Virus record (IMG/VR): IMGVR_UViG_3300048597_000401
Coordinates: 1 to 42,616 of that record
DNA from: a virus
Length of the DNA stretch: 42,616 nucleotides
Direction: 5' to 3' (one strand)
Shown: one piece after another, positions 12,001 to 41,924 of the stretch
Layout: every line of letters starts with the position of its first letter
How positions within the stretch are numbered: position 1 is the first letter of the stretch
Position numbers and translations under genes: made by a program
The notes under the pieces: model-generated
What the model saw: the letters and a program-made list of their open reading frames with translations, nothing else
Told to the model about the DNA's origin: nothing
The model's database searches: none

Positions 12001-14484
12001 CGGCAGCGCCGCCTCACCGCCCAAGGCCTTGACACCATCGATCAGCCCTCCGTGCACAAACGCATCGTGGATACGCGCCCGCGCCCGGATCGCTGTCCCC
12101 GCATCCAGCCTGGCCCCTTCTGCGACCATCTCAATGATGTCGTCGGCTGTGTACCCCGCTTCGGGAATGCCGGCGCCGGCGGCAGGATTCACGAAACCCA
12201 GGCCGCCATGCATCGTCACCATGCCCTGCACGTCGCCCGGGGTGCGCACCGGCCCGCGCCCCTGCGCGCCCCGCACGATGTTATTGACTGCATCTCCCTG
12301 CTGCAGTTCGACGACACCGAAATGCTCAAGGCCGCGGCGCAGCGCCTTCGAGCTGAGCCCGAGTGCGTCCGCCCCCCGCGCATACCAGTCAAACGGGTCG
12401 AGCAGCATGCCCCACAGCAGGAGTGGCCGCCAGTCCAGCATCTTGCCCTGCCAGTCCAGCTGATCCATCGTGCGCAGCTCGTTGCGCTGGACGCGCAGCA
12501 GCGTCTGGACTGCCCCGGCTCGCTCCCGAATATCCTCAAACGCGGCATCGACGTCATTCTGTGTCATGCCGAAGACCTGCGGATTGATGCCAAACTGGTG
12601 CGGGTCCCGCTGCGGCCCCACCAGACCATACCGCAGGCCGGCCTGTTGGGACTTGGCCGTCCGGTCCTGCGCATACGCAGCCGCCAGTTGCTCGTTGCTG
12701 TACTGCGCTGTGCCAATCAGCCCCCGCTCGTACAGCCACTGATGGACAGGGTCCATATAGCGCATACCGCCGGCGGAATCGACGACCTGAAGCTCCCCTG
12801 CCCGCCCCAACAGCATCAGCGCCTCAAGATAGTCATCTTCCGACCGCTGCCAGCCCTGGCCGTACACCGGGTCCTGCCGGTACATCCAGGTGTCGTCGGC
12901 CGGCGGCTGCATGCGCCCCCAGGTGCCGAACGCGCTCGGCTGCGCGGGCAGCGCAAACGGCATGCCCCGCAGCATGAACTCAAGCCCATTGTCCGCCAGC
13001 ACCTTGCGCACCTCGTCGTCGGCCGTGCGCCCCAAATCGACTGTTGCATGCGCCAGGATGCCCATCAACCTGATATCCTGGTCCAGCTTGGCCAGGGCCT
13101 CATCCTTGCGCTGGATAAAGCGCACGTTGGCCGTGTACGATTGCGCCACATTCAGCCAACCTGGCCCCTGGGTGTCACGCACGCCCCAGGCCGAACGCTG
13201 GAGCATGCGCCAGGCTTCGGCCTCCTCCGGGCTCAGGCTCCCGAGCGAAATGCTGTAGGCTTCCGGATCGCGTGCCGCCTGCATCCCTGCGTACACCTGC
13301 GGTAGCGTCCCGAGATTGGCAATATACTCGCCCAGCGTCTCGGGCTGTTTGTTCGGACGCAAACCCACCCCCAGCCCTGCGCCCTCGGCCAACGAAGCCG
13401 CCACATCGTTTGGATTGCCCTGCACCTGCTTGTCGTGCAGATACTGTTGGTAAGCGCGCTGCGCCCGCTGCTCGGCCTCATAGGCATACATATAGCCCAG
13501 GTCGTGATTGAGCGGCTGGCTGAGCGCAGGGTCCGGCGCCATCGGCTCCGGGTTCGGCCCGCTGATCAATGGCGCCACCACGACCTGCGTCAGGCCACGC
13601 GCGGCTTCCAGCACCGACAAACCGCCCTGGATAACACCCGTACGTTCGTCCTGATGTCCCCCGATCGGCGTCGTAATCAGGTCGCCCACCGCCTGCAATC
13701 CGCCATAGAGCACGGTCGCCCCGGTGCGTGTCGAAAGCTGCACCGGCGGCCCTATCAGCGGATTGTGCTCGATGTCACCCCACACTGCCTGGCCAAACGC
13801 GCCAACTGCCTCCACCTGCTGCCACCAGGGCTTCGCCACGTCGACGGCAGCCTCGGCCGCCGTAAGAGGATTGACGAAGTGCCCGATGTTCCAGGGCGCA
13901 CGCCAAATCTGCTCCTCTTCTACGGTCTTGACGGCCGCCGTCACTGCGCCCGACGAATAGAGCCAGTTGCGCGCTCCGCTAAACACGTCCTGTTCGCCGC
14001 CAGGCAGGTACTCGATGTTTTTCTGCGCGCCGGCCAGCGAAATGCCATAGACTGACGAACCACGCGGCTCGTCTTGCGTGTGCTCGCCCCCGCTGAACCA
14101 GGCGCCAATCCCACCCCAGAACCAGTTCCCGTCCGCTGCCGGCTCCGCGGCTCTCTGCGCCGCCTGGGATTGAACCGGCGTCACCATGGGCGCCACCACG
14201 GGCGTCACTGCTGGCAGCGGCATGGGTGTGGGCAGTGACGCAGGGACAGGTGTGGGAACGGGCACCGGCATCACGCTGCCGCCTGTGCCCGGCATCTCGC
14301 CGGCGGCCAGCATCGTTAACACCTGCTCCCGCCGGACATACCCTGGCGCCTGCGCAAAGGAATCACGCGCCGCCGTCGTTGCATTGGGATCGGGATGATT
14401 GCCCGTCAGCACGGCAATCTCAGCTTCTGTCTCTGGATCAGACTCGCCCAAACGCCAATCCAGGCTACCCCATAGCATGCCCAT
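1..14484 (-). CDS. Giant phage protein (at least 4,828 aa, 3' end outside window), polyvalent / tape-measure-position protein
   Basis: One open frame runs from ATG 14484 to the window edge. I found no in-frame stop in the large majority of lines that I read codon by codon. An in-frame TAG lies directly upstream of the ATG and a GGGAG ribosome site precedes it, so the start is firm. The frame overlaps the chaperone extension by 20 nt. Visible parts by residue: Pro-rich 75-115; a motif VTMHGG(L/F)G(F/W)V at about 758 and 2673; two UBA-like helical repeats at about 2967-3002 and 3490-3527; three small beta-barrel-like segments at about 3040-3095, 3142-3199 and 3274-3330; a Gly/Ala/Pro-rich linker at about 3533-3655; Trp- and Pro-rich amphipathic segments at about 3700-4300, resembling C-terminal parts of phage large polyvalent proteins; a GIY-YIG domain at about 4527-4640; and an HhH domain at about 4705-4765. 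Its position after the tail chaperone is that of a tape measure, but the composition is not the simple helical repeat of that family. It may be injected with the DNA (inference). Confidence 0.85.
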   Translation of the reverse strand, partial: MGMLWGSLDWRLGESDPETEAEIAVLTGNHPDPNATTAARDSFAQAPGYVRREQVLTMLAAGEMPGTGGSVMPVPVPTPVPASLPTPMPLPAVTPVVAPMVTPVQSQAAQRAAEPAADGNWFWGGIGAWFSGGEHTQDEPRGSSVYGISLAGAQKNIEYLPGGEQDVFSGARNWLYSSGAVTAAVKTVEEEQIWRAPWNIGHFVNPLTAAEAAVDVAKPWWQQVEAVGAFGQAVWGDIEHNPLIGPPVQLSTRTGATVLYGGLQAVGDLITTPIGGHQDERTGVIQGGLSVLEAARGLTQVVVAPLISGPNPEPMAPDPALSQPLNHDLGYMYAYEAEQRAQRAYQQYLHDKQVQGNPNDVAASLAEGAGLGVGLRPNKQPETLGEYIANLGTLPQVYAGMQAARDPEAYSISLGSLSPEEAEAWRMLQRSAWGVRDTQGPGWLNVAQSYTANVRFIQRKDEALAKLDQDIRLMGILAHATVDLGRTADDEVRKVLADNGLEFMLRGMPFALPAQPSAFGTWGRMQPPADDTWMYRQDPVYGQGWQRSEDDYLEALMLLGRAGELQVVDSAGGMRYMDPVHQWLYERGLIGTAQYSNEQLAAAYAQDRTAKSQQAGLRYGLVGPQRDPHQFGINPQVFGMTQNDVDAAFEDIRERAGAVQTLLRVQRNELRTMDQLDWQGKMLDWRPLLLWGMLLDPFDWYARGADALGLSSKALRRGLEHFGVVELQQGDAVNNIVRGAQGRGPVRTPGDVQGMVTMHGGLGFVNPAAGAGIPEAGYTADDIIEMVAEGARLDAGTAIRARARIHDAFVHGGLIDGVKALGGEAALPETGTLAEFLAQTGGEARSALGLLDVAQVDDLSDLSGYVYKGLAIPAHQQLRLPHGFGELDKLWGADTATLALLQKDIASRFVVNMFREPSRAEVLTDLAHNLTDVPVWQRDAYGYLSEAAQALSREDPAYVMRMPWHDAALENHGAAQGAYRTILGMAELAPETGIHVDVYNVGYDPETKSLLVPMRLDGLEDDSLWLMGNMHKNPKAVTRAAMTTDIAWLKHELWGVEEAGGGNRVPGGPLATFEQLYGTQEQYVAATLHDLAVEKSKAGLSEQQLASSKPSDWDKIKASSVFGAGELAQMEAEIKQEYQQFRNWFNEPDESPLPNYALDRIVRQEVGEAPIRNNYFFDIQVLEHARRLATGYDAEATEFFRALVERKPDRFRQAQELLYRYGVWLNPQFEVTENGKRTLAAVGLSTYADISGANYAAYRDVRVGADTMGPAPALPNPYTLAFDQKTYWDEQWQLSGGRRAEKPNFAEYPSVPEVLLRTFDNTEGAIRLEKSQAAAAQVGIYNAEKWLFEMLAGAPADLPRGSKITASYIDAQASKGWALLDGTGQMHAPPAVGQVDLKTLMLADVVLEQKGLDYYIDWDAVTRGAGGYDLANVPLIKGRPEQLQPSAWRSGYLRMDDKLYQAQTVVQHTRVGPRGVSAAGAASQLDRIRVQMLPELMETWEAGGKGSMTVGAPELGAAYRDLSRAAVDAGLVVELYKPTKLDDGSYQLNYRLRTLAAGDEAWARASGDPAKVMQGFKAETLAALEKYQPQVDRLVAGFTHWKSAYGVTNPIPYIGATTVGSSWQPPESWVDWTRGPVAAAPYQMSLGLVQPWMTAPNPLQVAPPPLAPEPSFAPGSGLISDEFMTRLPAAWAAPGQGPLPATTDFLTILKQGNDPNYLYMTPVDGSAGLRGDNLVLKNQEYGASRGWTFYGALETLARKYLVPIFGTPQGAGATTPVLTRAIPHGGSLEFAPGENAYTAPAQQAASVAQQAAKTAEKVLADASNGVVAGMVAENAVAAAEAAAVRAAELKAKAQPKKVEEPKPGPPLTQAPLDAMVVGSDAHGRQIFYVAPGVTQPGPMSQARIGPIKWPGEQTPGSKAFGPGTGIASSRGRKAGQAPAAHDAHLMGPRLPITEEDWQREAENAEKFDVWGTDETVPGDPDRAGYALAGENREAQRLENKSAWDLEFGGKSMQDSGYLSTEWLGDDDSTLAGMEVQPAPPKVPYGEMPRALSEYDQKNGLLQFYIDRVEMFRDSQHGPNPPAAQLVQEVEAALASVPLIKVARDTLETFAGARGMTRKLIGGYSGVSPVAGEWIWNEAKKQAEWVARQINIRGTGVHVDPNPALKWGEGWSLEFPAGSYTSATPITLTDKEAKSAYQLRPAQSGGAADEFWWWGAHYWYNPAAGQAEKINVKGAQVKNWTVVAERPNYTVIRPALSSPWYYADEAHRYRQMPESWRVMDLDEFDVHVPDEEWDDFKFRLTADEGELAAQERAWPFLFTPAHEFARKFNFTYSDQVPDSQLYTPWPSELAYEAEVARLAKKAEMELKIRSSVPFFHDNIAWLENYIRKTMGVTDPDEVADLLRTMYDLSVQRHQEKAAAAAAAVPALVNLKQQQDAFDEFLLAIQEVVPPTTAEGWVETGRNYLQKALGDFAKWVDAAPKDLTPEEVAAMAERQAQRVEQAEMAADNYAWEVNRARLAQDQEQQATRLPGKGNWQIVGTFDDVAVRLQYRNAKEGDAVFAVYPQTRIAPASFQPWWKGMKKIPEEQRELYIAQAPWLTSGFEGEYVSVVPEGWAPPVKTASPVAEVGGDVGDMLGPPAQIGPQPKNVARKQHRWADHWKLTPLPGQADDGTVTMHGGFGWVKTDAGQFPAPVSSLTPEEKEAVRTLNKALQTGQRTYDSLREGEWELMFRAWEGGGFGSPRPGEGWPAWAAARREKWLNYDSWVRSHAPRGQAGVRPFSGNASAISSAIGGKGSMTAADFAANLHSSAGKGAVYAPGRMRILDVVPQENGQYVVIAYETGGVTAYVMDDVMPQILATDKVVEINRGVAFGVGVESPLEKRLWLGEHGVMPAYGASIENTGLNAVRGSQYGYAAKATRAEQLAAIEAEAAQRAAQAAVPPAAEVTPDLTLEPGAVPGSEMGGPAAQATPAPDGVYAGTASLLRELGYRPEEIAQMTQAEARAVLARGGDWFNDIGQPAGEDIAVERAVTGAGPVTGSFAAPATQHVEGDRIGWTLRVRNEQGLSAVGLVVDEAEAGAASMYLVRMRNGQEQWISDAHAQFLTPANAATRAAALAQTAAPVGARGPAPGMVGPYTPGTALPAGPKLDIRIGRTVKVQGEDGQVTTGVLTDTDSDGYELWGRVRLDDGSEGWYRRDQFEYEGPATIESMTPKPAVTGTVKRGVSDLQLGVFGKVTDLLPAAYADAMGTLQTRNIYEQMGADTYRVGGVWRGPLAQSEGAPPQFHAGDVVVAGAGGQSERAQIYGVGTYEDPIFGLREGYKLHDGRVVPAESVRGLIARNPLGAPLAPEPLQMTLIEQAQMRKAYASGGAVGETAAAENRPVELEVLPGAPGDDAAAVPVPFQELVAPADAAAGAGREPRPSTGPSVLDAPPPVTSNILNPQAFGAEPDDWEPPAGIPSSTDEVPPPGVEGAAPARPATGAGARELDVAPDSTGAPLMITQRVRGQLIGMGYSSAEVNAMQPEEAWAVIDAYEDARVGTGAVSGAVSGAGPGATGAGAGGAGGTGGVGARGIGAGSGAVGAGTGSPGGPVVAGPGVVGPGIPGGAGAGGAGGVGGGAGGAWSGGGRGNPGGAAGSGGGGQTLPPGGAAGALGAGPQPWYQQGLLGAANAFFGPGGGLPNALTAVASTVGMAGGAAGRAAGAAGGHGYNTLFTVAQWVDNRMPWADTAKTKAAKFRDQWGMVASMFTSATTDQMELSFLMDAWAADPEGFMARGVDLHGAFAQDWKRTQQQLQTAFGSPRSLSFANLEAQADEFGYFSFDPRLFGNEETAATLPIIYWMSPAFGNFAQTVRSVPAQRWGGGELFANMFSSFLDDAGTAYYGMTAPGPLGKVLKTAGDLQRHVQAETVLNLNPGNWIGNWIGAWATTAYEGYGSLKTTDEFIRQTYNLFNAAPTERLRDSLEGRPTGSQAHLTWSESRLFRPSAWLQGLEPLVQFFTPRQNKQAVDAWFGQAEAMADRHNPLAFLALASDTTNRWWTTMTHVPGTGGRVRFGEAANYWGVFGAAQEDALDFNLAHAVDQTLLMMTVDDVLAASPEGQAAVTSIMGAVPTAAGEAMSRSAFATELQKVIGTVQDPDVKARLQTYVGDMLLHDFDTAVFAALRTGFKGANKVMLNPEYQKNIDTWMAPFFAFHYFTTRTAANWAGRILTDPRALGWWSRWERASDQYAEQNEVPIRYRGYLPGPNGFMLSNPINFLLGINKMMAGAPPNPDRAENLGDLAQQWAGMLNLRFMPGWTALLAQDPRNLWGGFFPQGEMVGQLGVLAQAAGGMLLNTMYEDDYAAMRKGRAIGASTITTGDDDYDVQQDALLALQALLEAMYGMPPTEEMTPGSQAALAYGERKVAFEGLVAGLSRFLGGYTVKAPIDPDEQSALALSGILKAVMPAEGAQEANWDAWKYIAALYPGLSVWHAQGDLYPTDTGYPETEPADRIKGVRPAPPMISRPAYAGFEWPVWDTDTGRLLESAQDSPFAEPGDNTAIYMLVDPRTGRVRYVGQSVAPSERINQHIEEFDEKGWDHPKTAWIGDMLRQGVYPTMYVFDWQPGSPKLNFDRADQMEQLWIGFLYYELGNRVWTDSVNVSIPERATWEQLVVDAGMTKEQMRQTFVAMQENPATWDRVRLGAEPKLARSPFSGLFPSLPRPGMPQAAPEEIVPDYGVNFHAYLPGEVGPKTTELLHGAGINTWEDLANPASQAKLAGLKGVSEGDAADWMAHANLTLAVQRGEAMVPTDGQEHEPDSGGGEFLVYPLTPAAVAAGEDGAAAAIAASGQGGHRHTQNTSY
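190..375 (-). other. Helix-hairpin-helix (DUF4332-like) domain inside the giant protein
   Basis: Residues about 4705-4765 include LLHGAGINTWEDLANP and LKGVSEGDAADWM. This is the usual pattern of tandem helix-hairpin-helix DNA-binding modules: a hairpin 'GI', a 'tWEDLA' helix and a second 'l.GVs' hairpin. It follows the GIY-YIG domain, so the order nuclease then HhH recalls UvrC, although the rest of the protein is unrelated. Confidence 0.6.
580..910 (-). other. GIY-YIG nuclease domain inside the giant protein
   Basis: Residues about 4527-4640 read AIYMLVDPRTGRVRYVGQS, which matches the GIY...YIG core as IYM...YVG with the usual spacing. After it come an Arg (SERINQH), a His and then DQMEQLWIGFLYYELGNRVW, where the Glu fits the metal-binding Glu of the family. 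All expected catalytic positions appear to be present. The family cleaves DNA, in UvrC, homing endonucleases and some phage proteins. In this protein it could act on host or phage DNA after entry, but that is inference. Confidence 0.75.
3520..3897 (-). repeat. Gly/Ala-rich low-complexity linker in the giant protein
   Basis: About 125 residues are almost only Gly, Ala, Val, Pro, Ser and Thr, with irregular GAG, GGA and GTG triplets, no clear Gly-X-Y periodicity and no charged residues for long runs. It separates the N-terminal part, which carries the small repeated domains, from the C-terminal part, which carries the membrane-like and nuclease segments. It probably acts as a flexible spacer. 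The plus strand here gives spurious Pro-rich reading frames. Confidence 0.8.
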
Positions 14485-19400: not shown

Positions 19401-21068
19401 TCAATTCCCCGCCACGTTGTGCTTGTAGACGCCGCGCCAGTCGATCGGGCCAAGGCTGTAGAAGAATCTGACCTTGATCGGCAGCACATCGTTGCTGAAC
19501 AGCAGCCCGCTGTTGGGATCGGCCACCGAGAACAACTCCGGCTGGCGGCCAAAGCGATAGCCAAGCCCGATGTTCGGGTAGATGCGTGGGTCAGCCATCG
19601 CCACCCAGTCGTTGGCGTCTTCCATAAAGTCATTGACGATGATGCGCCGCCGCGCCGCCTGCAGACGAGCATCAGCCGTCGTACCCGGTTCAACTTCCGG
19701 ATTGACGTCGTTGTTGGCGTTGCCGGGCGTCTGCTCGGAGGCGAAAATCGTCAGGGCTGCCGGCTCCAGGTCGCGCGGAATCATGATGTAGCGCGGCGTC
19801 GTCAGGCCGCCCAGGCGCGAGCCGGACCCCTCTTCCTTCTGCTTGGCCATCGCCAGCCGGGTCGCCTGCCACGATGCCACCGACAACGCCGCCGTGCCCA
19901 GGTTGCCGTGGTCGGTGTGGAACAAAGCTTTGCCGTCCCGCATGCCGGGGCCGACCCCGCTGTTGCCGGTGAAGATACGGGTGAAGTCGAGGCCGACTGA
20001 GTACCATGCCGCCTGCGCCAGCGCACGCGGCGCCTGCTGCAGCCGGCGGGTGTCGTCCTTGTCGATCGCTTCCAGGGTCAATCCCAAGTAGTTGCCACGC
20101 TTGACCCAGCCGGCCGTCTGCGTATCGGCCGTCCAACTGCGCTCCGTGTACGCCGCACCTTCCTTGACGACATCCAACTCGCCGATGCCGCCCACCACGA
20201 TCCAGTGAATGTCGTGAAGGTTGTTGAAGTCCTCGATCTGGCAGAGCGGCTCCCAGAAGCGGTCGTATTCCTGAAACATGCGGATGATCCGCTTGTTCAT
20301 GTACTCGACCATGAGATCCGCCATGGTGCTCGTGTTGATGTTGGCGAGCCCGACATTCTGGCGTTGAAACATCCCCGTCATCTCGAAGTCGCCCGTCAGC
20401 AGCATGTAGGCTTCACGGATGCCTGACAGTGGGCGCACGCCCTGGGCCGGCTTGCCGCCGTGCAGCAAGCCCTCGAACGCCAGGCGGAACTTGTCCATGC
20501 TGTCCAGCACGCCGCTCACCGCACCGCCGTAGGGCTTGAGGCCATGCACGATGCCGTTCTCATGGGCACGCGCCTCCACCTTGCGCTGCGCGGTAATCAC
20601 GCTCTCCACGCGCTCGCGCTCGGCTGTCACCAGGTCGCCGACGGCCAGGCGGACGACGTCCTGCCCCTCTTCGCTCAGGCCGCTGCCGGTAATGAGCGCG
20701 TCCAGTTCACGCCGGTGCTGTTCGTTGAGCAGCCGATCCACGCCTGAAAGCTTTTCGGCCACCAGCTTTTCCGCCAGTGCCGTCGCCAGGTTGGCAAGCT
20801 CTTGCGCCCCCAGGGCTGGCGCCCAGCGCCGGCGTTCGTCCCCTGCGTCCCGCTCTCCTGCCAGGGGCCGCACCTGCGCCAGAGCTTGGAGCTGGCTGCT
20901 GTCCGGGGGTGGCGAGGCCGCCACAACTTGCCCTGCGCTCCCATCTTCGTCTTCATCGCCGGCAACTGCATCGTCGCCCTCGAGCTCGTCCCCTGTAACG
21001 ATGACCGCAGCAGCATCCTCCAACTCGGCCGTGGCCTCGAGGGCGCCGGCCGCTAACTTTTTCTTCAT
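19401..21068 (-). CDS. Nested scaffold-capsid product from an internal start, 555 aa
   Basis: Within the protease-capsid frame, ATG 21068 (codon 253) is preceded by GGGAGGA at ideal spacing (7 nt). It begins MKKKLAAGALEATAELEDA, exactly where the protease domain ends and the scaffold-like segment starts. Independent initiation here would supply capsid protein in excess of protease, as lambda does for its C/Nu3 pair. The site is seen in the sequence; its use is inferred. Confidence 0.6.
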   Translation of the reverse strand: MKKKLAAGALEATAELEDAAAVIVTGDELEGDDAVAGDEDEDGSAGQVVAASPPPDSSQLQALAQVRPLAGERDAGDERRRWAPALGAQELANLATALAEKLVAEKLSGVDRLLNEQHRRELDALITGSGLSEEGQDVVRLAVGDLVTAERERVESVITAQRKVEARAHENGIVHGLKPYGGAVSGVLDSMDKFRLAFEGLLHGGKPAQGVRPLSGIREAYMLLTGDFEMTGMFQRQNVGLANINTSTMADLMVEYMNKRIIRMFQEYDRFWEPLCQIEDFNNLHDIHWIVVGGIGELDVVKEGAAYTERSWTADTQTAGWVKRGNYLGLTLEAIDKDDTRRLQQAPRALAQAAWYSVGLDFTRIFTGNSGVGPGMRDGKALFHTDHGNLGTAALSVASWQATRLAMAKQKEEGSGSRLGGLTTPRYIMIPRDLEPAALTIFASEQTPGNANNDVNPEVEPGTTADARLQAARRRIIVNDFMEDANDWVAMADPRIYPNIGLGYRFGRQPELFSVADPNSGLLFSNDVLPIKVRFFYSLGPIDWRGVYKHNVAGN

Positions 21069-21824
21069 GGCATATTCCTCCCGTACCGCATGCAAAATAC
21101 TTAATAGATCTCCGGTCATCCCCGGTTCGGCGCCCAGCACCCGGGTGCCACGCACAGCGGGGGCATTGACGGCGCTTGTCTCTTTGCCGGCTGGGTTGAC
21201 AAACACCAACTCACACAACTGCTCACGTCCATGCCCGCCATTTGCCTCTTCCGGCTTGTAGCGGCGGCCGGGCACATGTTGGCAGTCAAACCAGCGCTGA
21301 TGACAGATGCTGCACAGCACGTCGTCGTAGTACCAGCCAATGCTGAAGCGGTCGATCCGCCCCTGCAGGAAGTCCTCCATACCCCGCTGCGAGGTGAGGC
21401 GCACCCGCTGCCGAAAGCCGTCGATGCCGCCTACCTGCTCGCAGCGTGACGCGACAATCGTCCCATCCCGTGACCCGATGTCATAGACATCATGGTTGCG
21501 GAGGAATGGCTGCCCTTGGTAAGAAGCTGCAAAGCGGCCGAGGTCCTCTTCCCGAAAGCGCAGATAGTTGGTGTTCGGATAGCGGGCGAGAAATACAATT
21601 GCCTCGAATTCCAGTTCGGTCAGCTCCCCCGCCCGCACCTTGGCCAGCGTTTCACGACGCACGTCGTCGGCGAGCGCGCCACTCTCCTCGCCCGCGCCAA
21701 AACCTGCCACTGCATCAGACAGCACCACCAACTGCGGCAGCTCATAGGGGGCTAACTCCGTCGCCCCACCTGCTCTGCCTGCACCGGTGCACTTTGTCAC
21801 GTCGCCCTGGTTCTTGTTACACAT
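19401..21824 (-). CDS. Prohead protease - major capsid protein fusion, 807 aa
   Basis: ATG 21824 follows GAGGGAATGGGGA and lies 11 nt after the portal stop. Residues about 70-230 are an HK97-type prohead protease. The candidate catalytic His111 is in FLRNHDVYDIGS, and Ser161 is in the usual RFSIGW setting. A CSICHQRWFDCQH cluster (171-183) may bind a metal. PAGKETSAVNAPAVRGT is the family's typical C-terminal strand. Residues about 253-400 are acidic and helical, like a scaffold. Residues about 400-807 are the HK97-fold capsid protein of the Mu gpT-like type, with LFHTDHGNLGTAALS and YIMIPRDLEP. No stop separates the parts, so protease, scaffold and capsid are one polyprotein that must be cut during head maturation. 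Confidence 0.85.
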   Translation of the reverse strand: MCNKNQGDVTKCTGAGRAGGATELAPYELPQLVVLSDAVAGFGAGEESGALADDVRRETLAKVRAGELTELEFEAIVFLARYPNTNYLRFREEDLGRFAASYQGQPFLRNHDVYDIGSRDGTIVASRCEQVGGIDGFRQRVRLTSQRGMEDFLQGRIDRFSIGWYYDDVLCSICHQRWFDCQHVPGRRYKPEEANGGHGREQLCELVFVNPAGKETSAVNAPAVRGTRVLGAEPGMTGDLLSILHAVREEYAMKKKLAAGALEATAELEDAAAVIVTGDELEGDDAVAGDEDEDGSAGQVVAASPPPDSSQLQALAQVRPLAGERDAGDERRRWAPALGAQELANLATALAEKLVAEKLSGVDRLLNEQHRRELDALITGSGLSEEGQDVVRLAVGDLVTAERERVESVITAQRKVEARAHENGIVHGLKPYGGAVSGVLDSMDKFRLAFEGLLHGGKPAQGVRPLSGIREAYMLLTGDFEMTGMFQRQNVGLANINTSTMADLMVEYMNKRIIRMFQEYDRFWEPLCQIEDFNNLHDIHWIVVGGIGELDVVKEGAAYTERSWTADTQTAGWVKRGNYLGLTLEAIDKDDTRRLQQAPRALAQAAWYSVGLDFTRIFTGNSGVGPGMRDGKALFHTDHGNLGTAALSVASWQATRLAMAKQKEEGSGSRLGGLTTPRYIMIPRDLEPAALTIFASEQTPGNANNDVNPEVEPGTTADARLQAARRRIIVNDFMEDANDWVAMADPRIYPNIGLGYRFGRQPELFSVADPNSGLLFSNDVLPIKVRFFYSLGPIDWRGVYKHNVAGN

Positions 21825-21835
21825 TCCCCATTCCC

Positions 21836-23383
21836 TCATTCTTGCCCGTGCAGCTCGTGCCACGGGACCCACTCAGATCCGCCGGCGCTGCCGGCCGGCC
21901 GGCCTTGCTTGCGGCTGGGATTGGGCCGCTTGGGCGTCTGCGGCGGCGGTCGGTCCATCGGCTTGCGCACCGACGGCTGATCCACCGGCCGCCCTTGCTC
22001 CGGACCCTGCCCAGACACCCCGCCGGCGCCTTGTTCGATCTTGACCCCTGTTTCCACAATGTCTACCATCTCGCGTTCCGTCAGCGTCTCACCGGCAAAC
22101 TTCGAGAACAGCCGCAGCGAAACACGCCGCAGTTCCTTGGAGTCGCCGACGATCCCCATCAGCGTGTTCAGCGCCACTGCGAGGTCCCGGGCGGCCGCGG
22201 CCAGTTCCTGGTTGTCGTCGGGCGAGATATCGGGCGCTTGGACGAGGAAGTCCAGATGCGTGACGCTGCGCCGCTTGCTGCCGCTTGTCGCGCGTGAACG
22301 CTTATATGCCTGCAGCGTGACGTCGCACAGCATCCATGCCATGTATGCCTGGCGCCGGCTCAGAAAGCGATAGCGCAGGTCGTGCATCGCGGTCGCAGTG
22401 GCCAGATTGGCGTCCTCGCCCTCCCCGAAATCGACCAGCCCCGTGCCCGGGCCGCCGGCCGTGATCATCCAGCGAATGGCCCTGCCATCGGCCGAAGCGT
22501 CGCTTGCGTGCAGACTGGGGGTCACTGCCTCCCAGCGCTCGGCCCCTTCTTCCGCAATCACCACGGCGCCATCATCCGGCACCTGGCTGTAGCGGGCGCG
22601 CAGGTCGTCGACCAGCCGTTTGGGCGCGTAGACGATCCAGAGAAACTTGCGCACGCCTGCATTGAGACGGATCCGGTCTTCCAACCAGCGGCTGTAGCGC
22701 CGGATCCAGGGCAGGACAGCCGCCAGATCACCTTCCCCCCGCACGGCGCCCACCGGCCGGTTGACGGCATAGTGGCACATCACGGGCCTGGTCAGGTCGG
22801 CGGCATCCGGATGATCGGGCGAGATCCACCAGGTGCCATCCAGATCGTCGGGTGCGCCTTTCTCGTGATAAGCCAGTTCCGTCTCATAGTCGCCATCGTG
22901 CCAGCGCACCTGGTCGATCTGTGCAGCCGGCACGGCACGTACATGCGACACGCCGTCGGCAGGATTTGTGAAGAGCACTAGGAACAACTCGCCGGCACGC
23001 GCCAGCTCGTCGCACCACTCAGCCTGGCGCAGCAGCAGGTTGTTGCGGCTGTGAAACCAGAACTCCCGGATAAACTGGTCGAGCGGCTGATACTCGCTGC
23101 GAATCCGGATGCCCCCGGCCACGACGTAGGCCGTCGTCAGGCTGATAATGCGCCGTGCCAGCGGGTTCTGCCGCCACGCTTCCAGCGCATCGTTGAGATC
23201 CTGATAACGCTCTGCGCCCGACTTGTCGGCATAGCCACCCCCATCCATTCTGCCTCCATACATCGGCGTGAGCCCATCGTTGCGTTTGCCCACGTCGACG
23301 GGGGTGACCCTGCCCGCCAGCAACGCCCTTATCGCCGCCAGCACGCGTTGCCGGCGCGTGGCCGGCGCACCCTGTTCGTTCAT
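21836..23383 (-). CDS. Portal protein, 515 aa
   Basis: Starts MNEQGAPATRRQRVLAAIRA at ATG 23383. This overlaps the stop of the previous gene by 4 nt, and GGAG lies 11 nt upstream. Typical portal features: 'NPLARRIISLTTAYVVAGG' near residue 75, 'RQAEWCDELARAGELFLVLF', an internal 'LPWIRRYSRWLEDRIRLN' helix, and a long disordered Pro/Lys-rich tail (PPPQTPKRPNPSRKQGRPAG). Portals form the dodecameric DNA channel at one capsid vertex and dock the terminase. The order portal, protease, capsid is the standard one. Confidence 0.85.
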   Translation of the reverse strand: MNEQGAPATRRQRVLAAIRALLAGRVTPVDVGKRNDGLTPMYGGRMDGGGYADKSGAERYQDLNDALEAWRQNPLARRIISLTTAYVVAGGIRIRSEYQPLDQFIREFWFHSRNNLLLRQAEWCDELARAGELFLVLFTNPADGVSHVRAVPAAQIDQVRWHDGDYETELAYHEKGAPDDLDGTWWISPDHPDAADLTRPVMCHYAVNRPVGAVRGEGDLAAVLPWIRRYSRWLEDRIRLNAGVRKFLWIVYAPKRLVDDLRARYSQVPDDGAVVIAEEGAERWEAVTPSLHASDASADGRAIRWMITAGGPGTGLVDFGEGEDANLATATAMHDLRYRFLSRRQAYMAWMLCDVTLQAYKRSRATSGSKRRSVTHLDFLVQAPDISPDDNQELAAAARDLAVALNTLMGIVGDSKELRRVSLRLFSKFAGETLTEREMVDIVETGVKIEQGAGGVSGQGPEQGRPVDQPSVRKPMDRPPPQTPKRPNPSRKQGRPAGSAGGSEWVPWHELHGQE

Positions 23384-24150
23384 CGCGCCGCTTGCTCCGC
23401 CGCCACGCGCCCCGCCGTGCGTGCCCGGTACTCCCATTGCCAGCCCCGTGCCGCCGGCAGATTGCCGGCCCGGGTTTGACCTTTCTCCCCGCTGCGCGCC
23501 CCGGCGTTTTCGAGCTGGCTCTCCATCATGCGTGAGCCATACTTACCGAAAACCCGGTCCCATTGATCTGCCAGCGCCAACACGCGCACGCGGCGATCCA
23601 CCTCTTGGGCACAAGCTGCGCACAGCCATTCGGCTTCCTGCGCGGCCTGGGCGCTGCCTTCATGTCCATACAGCGCGACGGTATACGCCTCGCGTGAACC
23701 GCAGGCACACTCGTTGGCGCGTTCAGCCAGCCGCAGCGCCAAAGTTCGGCTGACATAGGGCGCCACCAGCGCGTAGCGCTCAACCGGGTAGAGGCGTTTG
23801 CGCACATAGGGATGCCGGCGGCTTTCTGCCACCAGGCGGCCAAAGTCCGCACACTCCACGTACCAGGTAATGGCCGCCCACGGGGGCATCCACACCGGGC
23901 GGCAGGCGTCAAACTGCTCGGCTGTCTTGACCGGCAGCCAGGCGGTTAGCATGAGCGTGAGCTCGTACCAGCGCGGCTGGCGCAGATCGTTCCAGGCAAC
24001 GTCGCCGGCTTGGATCTGCCGGGCAAGCCGGCGCACGCCTGGATCCGCACAGACTGCACCGATCTCGACCGCGCCGATACGTTGTGCTGCGACGTCTTCG
24101 ACCGGCAATACCACTGCTGCAGAGTCAACTAACAAGGCCACAGACGACAT
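23380..24150 (-). CDS. Unrecognised Cys-rich phage protein, 256 aa
   Basis: ATG 24150 (MSSVALLVDSAAVVLPVED) has AGGAG 9 nt upstream; the frame runs further back to 24744 but that part overlaps the caspase-like gene and reads as shadow. The protein has a Trp-rich middle (WMPPWAAITWYVECADF). Near residue 170 a four-cysteine set, CACG then about 26 residues then CAAC, could hold one zinc ion. The C-terminus is basic and overlaps the portal start. It may be a portal- or lysis-associated accessory protein; no family was recognised. Confidence 0.6.
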   Translation of the reverse strand: MSSVALLVDSAAVVLPVEDVAAQRIGAVEIGAVCADPGVRRLARQIQAGDVAWNDLRQPRWYELTLMLTAWLPVKTAEQFDACRPVWMPPWAAITWYVECADFGRLVAESRRHPYVRKRLYPVERYALVAPYVSRTLALRLAERANECACGSREAYTVALYGHEGSAQAAQEAEWLCAACAQEVDRRVRVLALADQWDRVFGKYGSRMMESQLENAGARSGEKGQTRAGNLPAARGWQWEYRARTAGRVAAEQAAR

Positions 24151-24167
24151 CGCTCCACTCCTGCTGC

Positions 24168-24992
24168 TCACTTCAACACCACGAATAGGCCAAGCACCAG
24201 CACAACCAGCGCAAGCGAGACGATCAGGCTGATCCGGCTGGACAGTGCCCGGTTGCGTGACGCTTCCAGCGTCGCCAACCGGCGCTCCGTCTCGGCGCGC
24301 CAGGCGCGCTGCTCGTCGGTAAAGGTGCGCAACTGCGTTTGGATGTCGTTGACGCGCCCCACCAGCCCGATATAGCCGTTCTCGGCATCGCCGCGGACGG
24401 CACGCAGCAGCGAGGTGAGCTGTTCTTCGAGCTTGCTGTCGCCACTCTTGTCGGCCAGCCCAATGCGCCTGCCGTCGGAGCGCAGCCTGTCGCCGGCCGG
24501 AAACCACCGGTACTGCACGAGACCATTGCCCGAGGCCCGCAGGCACGCCTCCGCCAAGTCGCTGGTGTCGATAAATGCGCGCGCCAGATACACTCCGGTG
24601 GAGCGGGCCAGGCGGTCCTTGACCCCACTGGGATCGATGGTTGCCACGATGTCCACCGTGGCTGCTCGTTGGATCACATCGACGTGCTCGGCTGAAAAAC
24701 ACGAATTGAGCACGACCTGCCGGCAGCGGGTGGCATGCAGCCACTGGCCGAGTTGCGCCGAGCTGATCACTTCATCGGCCAGCAGGAAACCATCTGAACC
24801 CGAGTGTACGATGAGCCACACCAGGTCGAACGGCCCGTGATCCAGCACCTCGTCGAAGCAGTCCAGCGTTACATCCTGGTTAGCCAGCAAATGCACGTTG
24901 CAGCCGCCTGCCTGGAGAATATTGAGCACATCCTGCGCCTCGCGCGTGGCCTGCGTCAGGTCGGCTCCATGGGCGATGATTAAGACTTTCAT
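24168..24992 (-). CDS. Membrane-anchored caspase/CHAT-like protein, 274 aa
   Basis: ATG 24992 (MKVLIIAHGADLTQATREAQ) has GGGAG upstream; a GTG two codons earlier is the alternative. Residues 1-155 look like a caspase-fold domain: a beta strand 'KVLIIAHG', then DLVWLIVHSGSDGFLLAD with candidate catalytic His63, then RQVVLNSCFSAEH with candidate catalytic Cys98, then VDIVATID and a helix 'GVYLARAFI' as in CHAT/caspase-like folds. Residues 185-245 are helical and probably coiled-coil (NDIQTQLRTFTDEQRAWRAE). Residues 254-273 are one strong transmembrane helix at the very C-terminus, so the protease-like domain should face the cytoplasm. It lies next to the holin in the lysis/packaging part of the operon. 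A role in timed cell killing, in defence evasion or in superinfection exclusion is possible; none is shown. Confidence 0.65.
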   Translation of the reverse strand: MKVLIIAHGADLTQATREAQDVLNILQAGGCNVHLLANQDVTLDCFDEVLDHGPFDLVWLIVHSGSDGFLLADEVISSAQLGQWLHATRCRQVVLNSCFSAEHVDVIQRAATVDIVATIDPSGVKDRLARSTGVYLARAFIDTSDLAEACLRASGNGLVQYRWFPAGDRLRSDGRRIGLADKSGDSKLEEQLTSLLRAVRGDAENGYIGLVGRVNDIQTQLRTFTDEQRAWRAETERRLATLEASRNRALSSRISLIVSLALVVLVLGLFVVLK

Positions 24993-25029: not shown

Positions 25030-25395
25030 CTACTTGCGCACTGGTGCCGGCGGGGTCGGCGCATCGACCGCGCCCACCACTTCCTTGATGGTCCGCAGCG
25101 CGGCCTCGATCGACTGGCGGGCCAATTCCGGCGTAATCCACGGCAGGCGCTGCTGCAGCGCCGTCATGGCCTCGTCCAGGCGCACCTCTTTGGCAATTCG
25201 GCCCGACTGCCATTCCTGCTCAACGTAGCGCACGACCCAGATCGCGGCGTCGTACAGCTCCCGCTGCCGTTCGACGGAAACACGCGTGCGCAGGAAGCGC
25301 ACCGCTTCCCCCAGCAGCCAGGTGAGCAGCGAGCCGACCACCAATGTCACTGTCGCCTGGGTCCACGTCGTTACTGCCAACTGTGTGTCAAACAT
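25030..25395 (-). CDS. Phage holin, LLH-type, 121 aa
   Basis: ATG 25395 has AAAGGA 8 nt upstream. One transmembrane helix lies near residues 14-30 (ATVTLVVGSLLTWLLGEAV). It is followed by an amphipathic helix, 'LYDAAIWVVRYVEQEWQSG', and a Pro-rich tail. This layout matches LLH-family holins, which have an N-terminal membrane helix and the downstream pattern 'a..aV..vEq...g...K'. Holins open the cytoplasmic membrane at lysis. Its site between terminase and portal is unusual but occurs in other phages. No endolysin is seen in the window. Confidence 0.6.
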   Translation of the reverse strand: MFDTQLAVTTWTQATVTLVVGSLLTWLLGEAVRFLRTRVSVERQRELYDAAIWVVRYVEQEWQSGRIAKEVRLDEAMTALQQRLPWITPELARQSIEAALRTIKEVVGAVDAPTPPAPVRK

Positions 25396-25431: not shown

Positions 25432-26898
25432 CTACCAACCCCGCGCCCGGTCGTCATATTGCACCAGCGGATCCACGCTGGGAATGACCGTGGAGGGGAT
25501 ACCGCTGACGTACTTCCACTTGCACCCGGCCAGCGCCAGGCAGAACGAATCGGCGCGGTCCTCGTGCATGCCTTTGGGCGCAGCGAGCGTGGCCGCCTCG
25601 ATGGATGCCAATTGGTCGATGGTGACGGCGGACCGGATACGCGTGGCGCCTTCTCTGAACACATCCGCGGCCAGATCGTAGAGCAGCGTGTTGCCCTTCG
25701 TGTTGGACAGCCAACCTGGTTTCTCGTCGCTGTGCCCACGCAGGAGCGTCAACTCCCCCGTGGTTTCCAGCGCCATGATGAGGGCATGGCCGTGGTTGTT
25801 CCGTTCGACCAGGACCGCTGCGGAGTTGAAAAAGACGCCCACCTGGTCGATATAGCCGCCGAAGACACGCGGCTCCCAGCGGCCGGCAAAGGCAGCCACC
25901 TCTTCCCAGGTCTCGGCATCGACTACCGTGGCCGCTGAGTCGTCCGATGTTGGGTTGCCCTCCGCCGGGTCGGCGCCGATAACATAGCGGCGCCCAGCCT
26001 GCGGGCGCACGTACACGGTCAAGCCCGGCACTCCGGGCAGATCTGCATCGCCCAGCGCCGTGGCTTCGGCGCGACATGCTTGCAGCCAGTCGAACGGAAT
26101 GCGCTTGTCGAGCTGGCGCGGGGCAAGCGCCTGCTCGGGCGTGTCCGGGTACTCTTGATAGAGATCGTCGTTGCTGTGATTCTGCTGGAACATGTCGGCC
26201 GCCACCTGCCGGTACCATGCGTCGGTGCGGTCCGGCCGGGCGCGCCAGGAAAAGAAGATGGGGGTATAGTTGCTCGACTTTTCGTAATAGGCCGAGCGGA
26301 AGAGCTGCTTGAAGGTGCTGAGCGGCACCGCCTTGTCTACCGTGCTGATGAGCACGAGCTGGCCGCCGGCATCTACCGCCGGCTTGATGGCGTTCAGTAC
26401 CTCGGAGAGCGAGGGCACAAAGTCCGCCTCGTCGAGCAGCACGAAGGTTCCGGTATACGAGCGGCCACCCGACGTCGGAAACGCCTTCGCCCGCGAACCG
26501 TTGCTGAGTACAAGGTCGTGGGCGCTGTCGCGTTCCACCTTGGCTGCTTGCATCCATTCCGGCAGCAGACTGTGCATCTTGGATAGGCGGTTCGTCAACA
26601 GATCGACCGACTCCTCGTCGCGCTTTGACATGATCATGATGTTGGCGATCGGCCGGAACAGCATGAGCCAGAGTGCAAACGAGAGACAGAGCCACGACAT
26701 TCCCAGTTGCCGCGCCTTGAGGACAATGACGTACTGCGACGTCATAATCTGGCTCAGCGCCTCCCGCTGCGCCGGCCACATCTCGAACGGGATCCAGTCG
26801 CGAATTGTCGCGTTGTAGATCCGCACGTACTTCTCGGTGAAATAGACAGGGCTTAGCCAGCACCGTGTGAGCTCCTGCTTAATTGCGTCCTGGTCCAT
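25432..26898 (-). CDS. Terminase large subunit, 488 aa
   Basis: Residues from ATG 26898 (MDQDAIKQEL): a Walker A variant KARQLGMS at 61-68, Walker B LLDEAD at 154-159, and then the RNase H-like nuclease with acidic residues Asp310 (VIGADPAEG), Glu365 (VLVERNNHGHAL) and Asp447/Asp450 (HEDRADSF). All motifs for packaging ATPase and headful or cos cutting are intact. An alternative start nine codons upstream (26925) is possible; neither has a strong ribosome site. The gene overlaps the winged-helix gene by 20 nt, suggesting coupling. Confidence 0.93.
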   Translation of the reverse strand: MDQDAIKQELTRCWLSPVYFTEKYVRIYNATIRDWIPFEMWPAQREALSQIMTSQYVIVLKARQLGMSWLCLSFALWLMLFRPIANIMIMSKRDEESVDLLTNRLSKMHSLLPEWMQAAKVERDSAHDLVLSNGSRAKAFPTSGGRSYTGTFVLLDEADFVPSLSEVLNAIKPAVDAGGQLVLISTVDKAVPLSTFKQLFRSAYYEKSSNYTPIFFSWRARPDRTDAWYRQVAADMFQQNHSNDDLYQEYPDTPEQALAPRQLDKRIPFDWLQACRAEATALGDADLPGVPGLTVYVRPQAGRRYVIGADPAEGNPTSDDSAATVVDAETWEEVAAFAGRWEPRVFGGYIDQVGVFFNSAAVLVERNNHGHALIMALETTGELTLLRGHSDEKPGWLSNTKGNTLLYDLAADVFREGATRIRSAVTIDQLASIEAATLAAPKGMHEDRADSFCLALAGCKWKYVSGIPSTVIPSVDPLVQYDDRARGW

Positions 26899-27166
26899 GG
26901 GTGAGCCGGATGCCTCGTGCCACATGCGGCGTCACACGCACCAACCCCCGCTGCTGCAAACGCAGCAGCCACCGCTGCACCGTTGCCGTGCTGCCGATGC
27001 CGGCGCCGGCCCGTATCTCAGCCCGCGTCGGCGGCAGGTCACTTGTCTCGGCATGACGCTGCAGATACGCCAGGATCGCCAGAGCGTGCGGCGGCAAACC
27101 TTGCACGCGGCGATCGGCGGCGTCCGGTGCGGTGGATTTCTTGTCTACGTCATTGCGCATAGCCAT
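26879..27166 (-). CDS. Small LexA-type winged-helix DNA-binding protein, 95 aa
   Basis: ATG 27166 has GAGAGG 8 nt upstream. Residues 25-90 have the winged-helix pattern of the LexA N-terminal domain: 'ILAYLQRHAETSDLPPTRAEI', then 'GSTATVQRWLLRLQQRGLV' as the recognition helix, then a wing ending in ARGIRLT. There is no protease domain. It sits between the two terminase subunit genes, 12 nt after TerS, so it may be an autoregulator of the late operon or part of the DNA recognition step of packaging (inference). Confidence 0.75.
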   Translation of the reverse strand: MAMRNDVDKKSTAPDAADRRVQGLPPHALAILAYLQRHAETSDLPPTRAEIRAGAGIGSTATVQRWLLRLQQRGLVRVTPHVARGIRLTHGPGRN

Positions 27167-27178
27167 ATATAGGCCTCT

Positions 27179-27874
27179 CTAGGTTGGACCGCCCAGACTG
27201 GTGCCATGTGTCGCCACCGGCGCTGCTGCATCCGGTCCAGCGCCACCGGCGCCGCCTTTCCACACGGGTAGGACGCCGTACATCTGCATGAGGTCTTGCT
27301 GCGCTTTGGCCAGGTCGTCGGCCGTGATGGCGAGCGCTGACTCTTCCTTCACTTGGTCGATGCTGGTCGGTTCGCCCATTTCAAGGCGAAATGCCTGAAT
27401 GGCGTCGTGAAACAGGGCGCGCAGGGTAGGCAGTGCCCGCCGAGCATCCGCTTCCTCCATTGCTCCCAAGTTGGCAGCTTTGAGCGCGGTGTAACATCCT
27501 TCGAGCACATCGGAGACCATGCGCCGCCGGCGTTCCCGTTCCTGAATCCGGCGCTCCTCTTCGCGTGCTTGCAGGTCATCGCGCCGGGCCTTGTCGTAGG
27601 CAACCGCCCGATCCTCCCATCGGTACTCGCGTGCCATGCGGTACCAGTAACCGGTCGCACGGTCGCCCTTGAGTCGCTCGCCTTGTTCGGTGCGCTCGCG
27701 GTAGCACTCCTCGATCGTGCGGCCGGCGCCGAGCATCAGAAACGTCCAGAAGCGGTCGTACCAGACGTTTGGCTCGCCGGGCTGCATTTCCCACGGCTTA
27801 CCTGTTGCGCTTGGCGGCGCATCCGGCTGCTCGCCGGTCGGGCTGCTCTTCGGCTGGGAGACTGTTGGCGTCAT
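27179..27874 (-). CDS. Terminase small subunit-like protein, 231 aa
   Basis: Starts MTPTVSQPKSSPTGEQP at ATG 27874. The frame continues upstream through the terminator hairpin, which would encode FFFF, so that extension was rejected. After a Pro-rich N-terminus comes 'NVWYDRFWTFLMLGAGRTIEECYRE', a helix-turn-helix-like segment, and 'ATGYWYRMAREYRWEDRAVAYD', which is typical of phage-type putative TerS proteins. A long charged helix (REEERRIQERERRRR) then follows. No strong ribosome site is visible. It would bind the packaging site and start DNA translocation. Confidence 0.6.
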   Translation of the reverse strand: MTPTVSQPKSSPTGEQPDAPPSATGKPWEMQPGEPNVWYDRFWTFLMLGAGRTIEECYRERTEQGERLKGDRATGYWYRMAREYRWEDRAVAYDKARRDDLQAREEERRIQERERRRRMVSDVLEGCYTALKAANLGAMEEADARRALPTLRALFHDAIQAFRLEMGEPTSIDQVKEESALAITADDLAKAQQDLMQMYGVLPVWKGGAGGAGPDAAAPVATHGTSLGGPT

Positions 27875-27889
27875 GCTTGTCTGCTCGGC

Positions 27890-27941
27890 AAAAAAGAAAA
27901 AGCCACCCCAGGGCACACACTGTGCGTGCCAAGTGGTGGCT
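27890..27941 (-). terminator. Strong intrinsic terminator in the leader of the late operon
   Basis: Read on the minus strand, AGCCACC pairs with GGTGGCT, and the inner GGCACGCAC pairs with GTGTGTGCC using a G-U pair that works only on this strand. A T-rich tract, TTTTTCTTTTTT, follows. It lies only 16 nt before the TerS ATG. Late genes must therefore be read through it or be started between it and the ATG, for which there is little room. This recalls the tR' terminator of lambda, where an antiterminator allows late transcription. Confidence 0.75.
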
Positions 27942-28041
27942 TCGTTTGCGATCCATGCGGTGGTCTGCGGACCAAAGATCGCAGCGATGCGCTTAGGCGA
28001 CCCATACGACTGCGCACACCGCAGCCCAAGGTCGGCAACCA

Positions 28042-28055
28042 AAATCGTACGATTT
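28042..28055. promoter_or_regulatory. Perfect 14-bp palindrome, candidate operator
   Basis: AAATCGTACGATTT is a perfect inverted repeat in the gap between the 66-aa gene and the terminator that precedes TerS. Its AT-rich arms and position fit a repressor or activator site controlling the late operon. The winged-helix protein encoded downstream is a natural candidate ligand (inference). Confidence 0.5.
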
Positions 28056-28672: not shown

Positions 28673-28934
28673 GAGCGCGATGAACGCTGCGCATCGAAAA
28701 ACCCTTGTAGCCATCTATCGCGTTCCTATTCCCACCAATTTGGAGTGGAGGCGAATAGAGGCGCTGTTGGTTGCGTAGGGTGCGCAAGTTATCGAGGGGA
28801 GAGGTTCTCGCGTGCGCTTTGAGTTGAATGGAGTTGTGGCGACGTTTCACCGACCGCACCCCGACAAGGAAGCGAAACCATATCAGGTGCGAGACGCGCG
28901 AGAGTTCTTGACACAGGCAGGAGTCAAGCCATGA
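28671..28934 (+). pseudogene. hicA: hicA toxin, interrupted by an in-frame amber codon
   Basis: The frame from ATG 28671 reads MSAMNAAHRKTLVAIYR..., reaches WRRIEALLVA, meets TAG at 28776-28778, and continues GAQVIEGRGSRVRFELNG and TFHRPHP..YQVRDAREFL to TGA at 28932-28934. Both halves match the double-stranded RNA-binding-like HicA mRNA interferase of the 'GSRVRF' subfamily. The stop lies where relatives usually have Leu (ALGA), so a single TTG to TAG change would explain it. The toxin should be inactive unless the stop is read through. It overlaps hicB by 4 nt, as in intact operons. Confidence 0.8.
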
Positions 28935-29266
28935 ACACGATGACTTACCGCGGCTACGCGGCGAAAATTGCGTACAGCGACGAAGACGGCTGCTTTGTGG
29001 GGCACATTGCCGGGATTCGCGATGTGGTGGGATTCCACGGCGAGTCAGTGGCGGAATTGCGGGCGGCGTTTGAAGAAGCGGCGGACGACTACCTGGAGAC
29101 CTGCGCCAGGTTGGGGCGCACGCCGCAGAAGCCCTATTCCGGCAAGCTGCTGCTGCGGGTGGACCCGCTGCTGCACGCCCGCGCCGCCATGCTGGCTGAG
29201 GCACAGGGCAAGAGCCTTAATGCCTGGGCACAGGAGGTCCTGGCGCAGGCTGTTGCCGGGGCTTAG
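28931..29266 (+). CDS. hicB: HicB-type antitoxin, 111 aa
   Basis: Starts MNTMTYRGYAAKIAYSDED with the ATG overlapping the hicA stop (ATGA). Residues 1-60 are the partially degraded RNase H-like HicB domain (CFVGHIAGI, VGFHGESVAELRAAFEEA). Residues 72-108 are a ribbon-helix-helix DNA-binding domain (LLLRVDPLLHARAAMLAEA). In the family it binds HicA and represses the operon. It is intact although the toxin is broken, which is the expected order of decay. Confidence 0.9.
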   Translation: MNTMTYRGYAAKIAYSDEDGCFVGHIAGIRDVVGFHGESVAELRAAFEEAADDYLETCARLGRTPQKPYSGKLLLRVDPLLHARAAMLAEAQGKSLNAWAQEVLAQAVAGA

Positions 29267-29390: not shown

Positions 29391-29853
29391 TCAGCACGGC
29401 TGCGAGTTCTGCGACCTGGAACTCTGCCTACCCCGTTGCGCAGAGGCTACGACCCACGGCAGGTGCTCCTTCTCAGCTATGGATGGCCGGTCGGAGGCGG
29501 GCTGGGCGGCGCCTGCGCCGTAGTTAGTTATTTTCGCATGGGCATGTTCTAACTGCGCGTGCAGGCGCGCTTGCTTCTCGCGCTCCGACTGGATGAGCGC
29601 CTCGGCGAAGCGGGAGACCAGCGCCACCAACAGCATAGCCCACGGTCGTCGCGCTGATCGCCGAGAAATAGAAGCTGTCCAAGTAAGACCAGCCCTCGAC
29701 CCAGTGGAACACAAACGTCCCGACTAAGAGCAGTGGCGCGTTGAGCGTGGCCACCAGGTGGAACGTTGGGTCGCTCCAGGCTTTGCGAATCGCCGACCAG
29801 GACCGCACCAGGCCGATAAACAGTGAAAGCGCAGGGTTGCTCCCGTTTTGAGT
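29391..29853 (-). pseudogene. Potassium-channel (two-TM, Ion_trans_2) pseudogene
   Basis: One minus-strand frame encodes AIRKAWSDPTFHLVATLN, a transmembrane helix LLLVGTFVFHW and the pore region YLDSFYFSAISATTVGY, then breaks right after the selectivity filter near 29635. The adjacent frame resumes at MLLVALVSRFAEALIQ and REKQARLHAQLEHAH, the end of the second membrane helix and the tail. The segment between filter and helix end (roughly 25-30 residues in relatives) is missing, so an internal deletion with frameshift has destroyed the gene. It is probably a bacterial remnant rather than a phage gene. Confidence 0.7.
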
Positions 29854-37439: not shown

Positions 37440-37871
37440 ATGCTTCCTCAGATCGTAGTGACCGGCAATGTGGCCGCCGCCCCGCAGCTCGGCTACACCG
37501 AGAACGGCACTCCCGTGTGCAACGTGACGATCTACGCCAACGGCCGCGTCCCGGGCGACGACAAGCACGTCGAGCGCATCAAGTGCGCATTCTGGGGCAA
37601 GGCCGGCGAGTCGGCGTCCCAGTTCCTCAAGGTCGGGATGCCGGTGACGGTGTCCGGCGCCGCCGTGACCGAGCCGTACCTGACGCGTGAAGGCAAGCCC
37701 GCCGCCAACTTCAAGATCCTGCGCGCCGAGTTCCATCTGATCAACACGGGCAACGGCAACGGCGCTGCCGCCGGTGGCAGCGTCCCGACCGAGCCCGCCG
37801 AAGGCGCCGTCGCGGCCAGTGACCCCATGACCGCCGGCCTCCCGCCGGTCAGCCAGGAACCGCCGTTCTAG
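37440..37871 (+). CDS. ssb: Single-stranded DNA-binding protein 2 (divergent), 143 aa
   Basis: ATG 37440 has AAAGGAG 9 nt upstream. Starts MLPQIVVTGNVAAAPQLGYT. An OB fold is visible (PVCNVTIYANGR, RIKCAFWGKAGESASQFLK, GMPVTVSGAAVTEPYL), then a Gly/Asn linker and the tip VSQEPPF. It is very different from the 32520 protein. Phages with two SSBs may use them at different steps or with different partners (inference). Confidence 0.8.
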   Translation: MLPQIVVTGNVAAAPQLGYTENGTPVCNVTIYANGRVPGDDKHVERIKCAFWGKAGESASQFLKVGMPVTVSGAAVTEPYLTREGKPAANFKILRAEFHLINTGNGNGAAAGGSVPTEPAEGAVAASDPMTAGLPPVSQEPPF

Positions 37872-41855: not shown

Positions 41856-41924
41856 TGTGGTATCCTGGAATCCTGCGCAACCGCCAGGCGCCTCACTCAC
41901 GGTTGAACAGTTCAGGGAGGAATT

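Follow-up and report, generated by a model that had tools for sequence, protein, structure and literature searches.

A predicted membrane-anchored CHAT cysteine protease encoded in the terminase-to-portal block of a phage

Introduction

CHAT proteases are known as host-side effectors or signaling proteases. CHAT domains serve as effectors in bacterial anti-phage systems (PMC9729208, PMC7159879), among them the Craspase TPR-CHAT protein (Csx29), which has a caspase-like His-Cys dyad (H585/C627; PMC9729208) with a spacing of 42 residues, a TPR region and a gRAMP partner. In SAVED-CHAT (PDB 8tl0) the domain is combined with a SAVED cyclic-oligonucleotide sensor and a CRISPR link, while in Chloroflexota it occurs in STAND-like CHAT-NTPase proteins (PF12770; NACHT/AAA) of approximately 950 aa.

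The gene described here was found in 42,616 nucleotides of viral DNA (IMG/VR record IMGVR_UViG_3300048597_000401), analyzed over the full length and referred to below as the window. Its product, P0001, resembles the Chloroflexota CHAT-NTPase proteins by HMM, in its His and Cys and in the order of strands and helices, but is CHAT alone, without the NTPase part, has a membrane anchor and is encoded by a phage. It has neither the sensor nor the CRISPR link of SAVED-CHAT. The dyad of Craspase TPR-CHAT is common to the phage domain and its fold to the domain of a related phage, whereas the TPR region and gRAMP partner are absent and the His-Cys spacing is 33–35 residues. Classical caspases (C14 peptidases) share the fold of a related phage domain, but the sequence of P0001 is CHAT-like.

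Gene and operon

The P0001 gene was located at 24168–24992 (-) of the window as an intact open reading frame of 274 aa plus stop, with its ATG at 24992 and a GGGAG motif resembling a ribosome site 5' of the ATG. Its codon usage was like that of the phage's own neighboring late genes (log-odds 110 over 276 codons). On the same strand the block begins with the small terminase, TerS (27179–28042; phrog_6299, E 8.5e-16), whose true start is probably downstream of the annotated one, at MTPTVSQ. There follow a small HTH protein (26879–27166; phrog_3502, E 1e-10; phrog_362 repressor, E 3e-6), the large terminase, TerL (25432–26925; phrog_2, E 1e-32), and an LLH-type holin (25030–25395; PHROG holin, E 2e-4; Pfam Holin_LLH, E 1e-3, under the cut-off), which lies directly upstream of P0001 with a 37-bp gap. 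Downstream, after a gap of 11 bp, a 258-aa protein (23380–24156) was without a family in Pfam, PHROG and further profile searches, and it is followed by the portal protein (21836–23437; phrog_10963, E 4.5e-21) and by a capsid protein with a fused N-terminus resembling a head-maturation protease (19401–21872; Pfam Phage_capsid_4, E 5e-27; phrog_133, phrog_18299). These PHROG and Pfam matches bear out the initial annotation, made from the sequence alone, in placing the gene within a phage late operon. Promoter- and terminator-like sites were looked for on the P0001 strand at the terminase-portal block and none were found, which fits co-transcription of P0001 with the block.

The host phylum is presumed to be Chloroflexota from one prophage-like TerL match (51% identity) in an Anaerolineae MAG.

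Assignment to the CHAT family

Searches of Pfam, PADLOC, PHROGs, NCBIfam, PDB sequences and GenBank phages gave nothing usable for naming P0001. It fell below detection by the Pfam CHAT model PF12770 in both hmmscan and a six-frame search, no Peptidase_C14 match was obtained in a Pfam scan up to E 1, and no PADLOC defense-system profile was matched. The CHAT family was reached via intermediates. When 301 Chloroflexota genomes were searched with P0001, three of the four best matches, all weak, were large CHAT-NTPase proteins, which themselves match Pfam CHAT at E 4e-13 to 1.5e-12. A cellular CHAT HMM was then built from 33 Chloroflexota domains (these three and 30 further cellular relatives, with no phage sequence) and run against the open reading frames of the window and of 49 TerL-bearing viral loci, thousands in all. 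Only two genes were matched in that scope, P0001 (E 7.5e-6) and a gene of the viral locus L003 (E 3.8e-6), the next match being at E 1.1. P0001 scored 22.3 bits, and 5000 shuffles reached at most 9.2 bits; with the two phage relatives described below added to the HMM its score rose to 28.2 bits (E 1.1e-6). A search of 49 viral records with P0001, run without a positive control, gave no match. A match at 20073–20195 (+) of the window overlaps the capsid gene in antisense and was dismissed as fortuitous.

The domain extends over residues 1–155 (24528–24992, -), as delimited by the HMM and by the strand and helix order of an AF2 model. In the HMM alignment His63 (codon 24804–24806) and Cys98 (codon 24699–24701) are in register with the catalytic His and Cys of CHAT, as expected of the His-Cys dyad that had been proposed for them. 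P0001 is assigned to the CHAT family with high confidence, and the earlier caspase/CHAT-like label is narrowed: the family is CHAT, not classical caspase or gingipain. P0001 is probably an active protease. CHAT domains of the L057 type were present in 56 of the 301 Chloroflexota genomes, the top ones also having an NTPase (AAA/NACHT) region.

Structure prediction

The single-sequence AF2 model of P0001 (pLDDT 60) has the order beta-alpha-beta-alpha-beta(His)-hairpin-alpha-beta(Cys)-alpha-beta-alpha, followed by a long helix, and in a fold search it matched flavodoxins (Z 9.8) and SAVED-CHAT (Z 9.7) alike. The CHAT domain of L003, folded together with the sequence of a second relative (L090), gave a confident model (pLDDT 82.4, pTM 0.80), for which SAVED-CHAT was the best match (Z 16.8, 2.8 Å, 167 residues), followed by the transmembrane anti-sigma factor DdvA (Z 13.4), Craspase TPR-CHAT (Z 11.9) and caspases (Z approximately 11). 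The confident model of the relative thus has the proposed CHAT/caspase fold, while P0001's own weak model ties flavodoxin and SAVED-CHAT. An alignment of the three phage domains alone, made with MAFFT, misplaced the Cys; it was rejected and for that reason left out of structure prediction.

The viral fold matches included unnamed phage and giant-virus caspase-like proteins, and unannotated viral relatives therefore probably exist. For two uncharacterized viral proteins, BFVD entries A0A8S5MXG5 and A0A1P8DJ94, the predicted fold is that of the phage CHAT domain.

Relatives in other phages

IMG/VR was scanned with terminase, portal and capsid alignments, and two further phages with a CHAT domain were obtained, for a total of three. 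L003 (TerL 60% and portal 51% identical to those of the window) has a helix-TM gene (4893–5243) and a separate CHAT gene (5323–6201; product P0002), both between TerS and TerL, the CHAT gene overlapping the TerL start. L090 (TerL and portal each 55% identical) has a 383-aa open reading frame (5871–7022, +) in which TerS is fused to CHAT by a Pro-rich linker. The N-terminus of this fusion matches phrog_6299, the TerS family of the window (E 2e-10), and its CHAT part shares 43% identity with the L003 domain (E 1.8e-33 against P0002). When P0001 and P0002 were compared directly, only the His-to-Cys core was similar (40% over 47 aa). The CHAT domain lies within the TerS-to-portal block in each of the three phages, and its architecture differs from one to the next: CHAT-helix-TM in the window, CHAT beside a helix-TM gene in L003, and the TerS fusion in L090.

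Loss of the dyad in homologues had been named as grounds for giving up the assignment; both residues are instead retained in each phage, at 63/98 in P0001, 192/225 in L003 and 283/316 in L090, with a spacing of 35 residues in P0001 and 33 in the other two. Among loci whose portals are 52–54% identical to that of the window, the CHAT domain was absent from L005 and L021 (54%) and from the part of L093 that is present. Since L005 and L021 are without it, the gene is accessory. Among the remaining viral loci no homologue of the window holin was detected, and CHAT is not tied to a holin, because it recurs near the terminase in the relatives and is fused to TerS in one.

In a tree of CHAT domains P0001, L080 and the pair P0002 and L090 formed a weakly supported group (0.79/0.83) on long branches, compatible with one or with several acquisitions by these phages. 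Of 50,697 GenBank phage records, one was matched by tblastn with either of two cellular CHAT queries; this record (MT836801.1), an unverified and unannotated scaffold of 8.7 kb, was left out. No open-licence paper linking the small terminase and CHAT was found.

Two minor observations were made among these loci. In L093 (2–964 and 1525–2862, +) a TerL that looks to be of a different type precedes a portal 52% identical to that of the window, which suggests module swapping. In L189 a stand-alone cellular CHAT protein of 229 aa (4985–5674, +), which the phage profile matched best among cellular proteins, lies beside a kinase-like gene.

Helix and membrane anchor

The best 19-residue segment of P0001, at residue 254, has a mean hydropathy of 3.1, and none before residue 230 exceeds 1.6. 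The single C-terminal membrane helix proposed initially was thus clear by hydropathy (residues 254–273; 24174–24233, -). It is preceded by a predicted long helix (residues 187–253; 24234–24434, -), covered in the AF2 model by H187–203 and H208–273, the latter with pLDDT 71–95. The coiled coil claimed for this part is only plausible, because the heptad score lacked significance, being reached by 1281 of 5000 shuffles. An Arg-rich flank on the N-side of the membrane helix suggests, by the positive-inside rule, that the CHAT domain is cytoplasmic.

XhlA-type lysis proteins consist of a helix and one TM. P0001 likewise has a helix, then a single TM, and is encoded close to a holin, but its C-terminus gave no Pfam or PHROG profile match except phrog_5225 at E 0.025. 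The C-terminal part weakly resembled the stand-alone helix-TM protein of L003 (pairwise E 0.002; common motif G-D/N...G..GLV), a similarity that is only suggestive.

Discussion

The evidence best supports reading P0001 as a CHAT cysteine protease tethered to the membrane and made late, with activity predicted from the retained dyad. As to its task, an accessory protease directed at the host, in counter-defense or takeover, is preferred, with a probability of about 0.4. The CHAT domain, with His63 and Cys98 intact, would be anchored on the cytoplasmic side of the membrane by the C-terminal helix and TM, and would be made late in infection with terminase, holin and portal. Caspases are activated by proximity, and TerS relatives form rings. 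An oligomerizing partner (the membrane helix in the window, TerS in L090) may bring CHAT domains together, so that they become active late; activation by proximity would suit these proteins, because in two of the three phages CHAT is fused to a possible oligomerizing or localizing element. The active domain would then cut some protein of the host; a component of a CHAT/STAND-type defense circuit is the most plausible, another takeover target the alternative. Conservation of the catalytic residues in strongly diverged copies argues for catalysis, and the accessory and divergent nature of the gene argues for a host-facing task over an essential packaging step. Avs sensors of the STAND class recognize TerL and portal (PMC12931631), both of which are encoded near P0001, and the presumed host phylum frequently encodes CHAT-NTPase proteins; counter-defense would therefore be coherent.

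Control of lysis is the main rival, although we consider it unlikely. A membrane-tethered CHAT protease would here cut or release the holin or another membrane protein and so time lysis. The short distance from the LLH-type holin in a common operon, the likeness of the helix-TM part to the L003 protein, of a kind known from lysis cassettes, and the clustering of membrane genes in the terminase block of the relatives all agree with this. The helix-TM homology is weak, however; the CHAT domain is encoded between TerS and TerL in L003 and fused to TerS in L090, in neither case with an adjoining holin, and the block occurs in relatives without the CHAT domain.

The accessory nature of the gene, together with the effector role of CHAT in anti-phage systems (PMC9729208, PMC7159879), would also suit phage-borne defense, in which a CHAT effector expressed late or from the prophage kills cells infected by rival phages, as in abortive infection or superinfection exclusion. 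We regard this as rather improbable, since P0001 has no adjoining sensor or partner gene, no promoter-like site of its own and no PADLOC match, and since its position inside the late block would make expression late for an exclusion role.

A decoy or dominant-negative protein would bind those host CHAT-STAND sensors that respond to TerL or portal, blocking but not cutting them. It would be encoded with, or fused to, the very terminase-portal proteins that Avs sensors recognize (PMC12931631), in a host phylum where CHAT proteins are frequent. Such a protein does not need catalysis, yet His and Cys are retained in three divergent phage copies; the intact dyad weakens a pure decoy, which we think quite unlikely. 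A protease that serves packaging or head assembly, with terminase, portal or capsid as its substrate, though in keeping with the TerS fusion and the constant location in the TerS-to-portal block, is very improbable, as the gene is accessory in the lineage, the capsid gene already has a head-maturation-protease-like N-terminus and the window copy is membrane anchored.

The preferred reading, a host-directed protease, may be extended to a phage CHAT family whose members are coupled to the membrane or, by the TerS fusion, to the packaging machinery, are activated by late phage assemblies and cut the STAND-CHAT immunity that senses TerL and portal. This extension is doubtful; if it were true, caspase-like bacterial immunity would have been turned on itself by phages. 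The occurrence of CHAT in a packaging and lysis block, once fused to TerS, suggests that phages have adopted a caspase-like domain for purposes of their own, and it bears on whether caspase-like proteolysis serves phages in counter-defense or in lysis timing. Because current family models miss phage CHAT, more such proteins may be present among hypothetical phage proteins.

Other genes of the window

A reading frame that stays open for at least 4828 codons (1–14484, -), and runs off the record, occupies the position of a tape-measure gene; no Pfam family over the cut-off and no PHROG was matched by it. A HicB-like antitoxin (28931–29266, +; phrog_9151, E 4e-43) was identified, as were three further phage-encoded proteins: a short ion-channel-like protein (29524–29808, -; PF07885, E 1.5e-7), a single-strand-binding protein (37440–37871, +) and a DnaN-like sliding clamp (39430–40869, +). 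At the end of the record, which cuts it, lies the N-terminus of a copper P-type ATPase with a His-rich head (41907–42614, +; TIGR01511, E 7e-15), and this fragment may be the host flank of a prophage, a cargo gene or a chimera.
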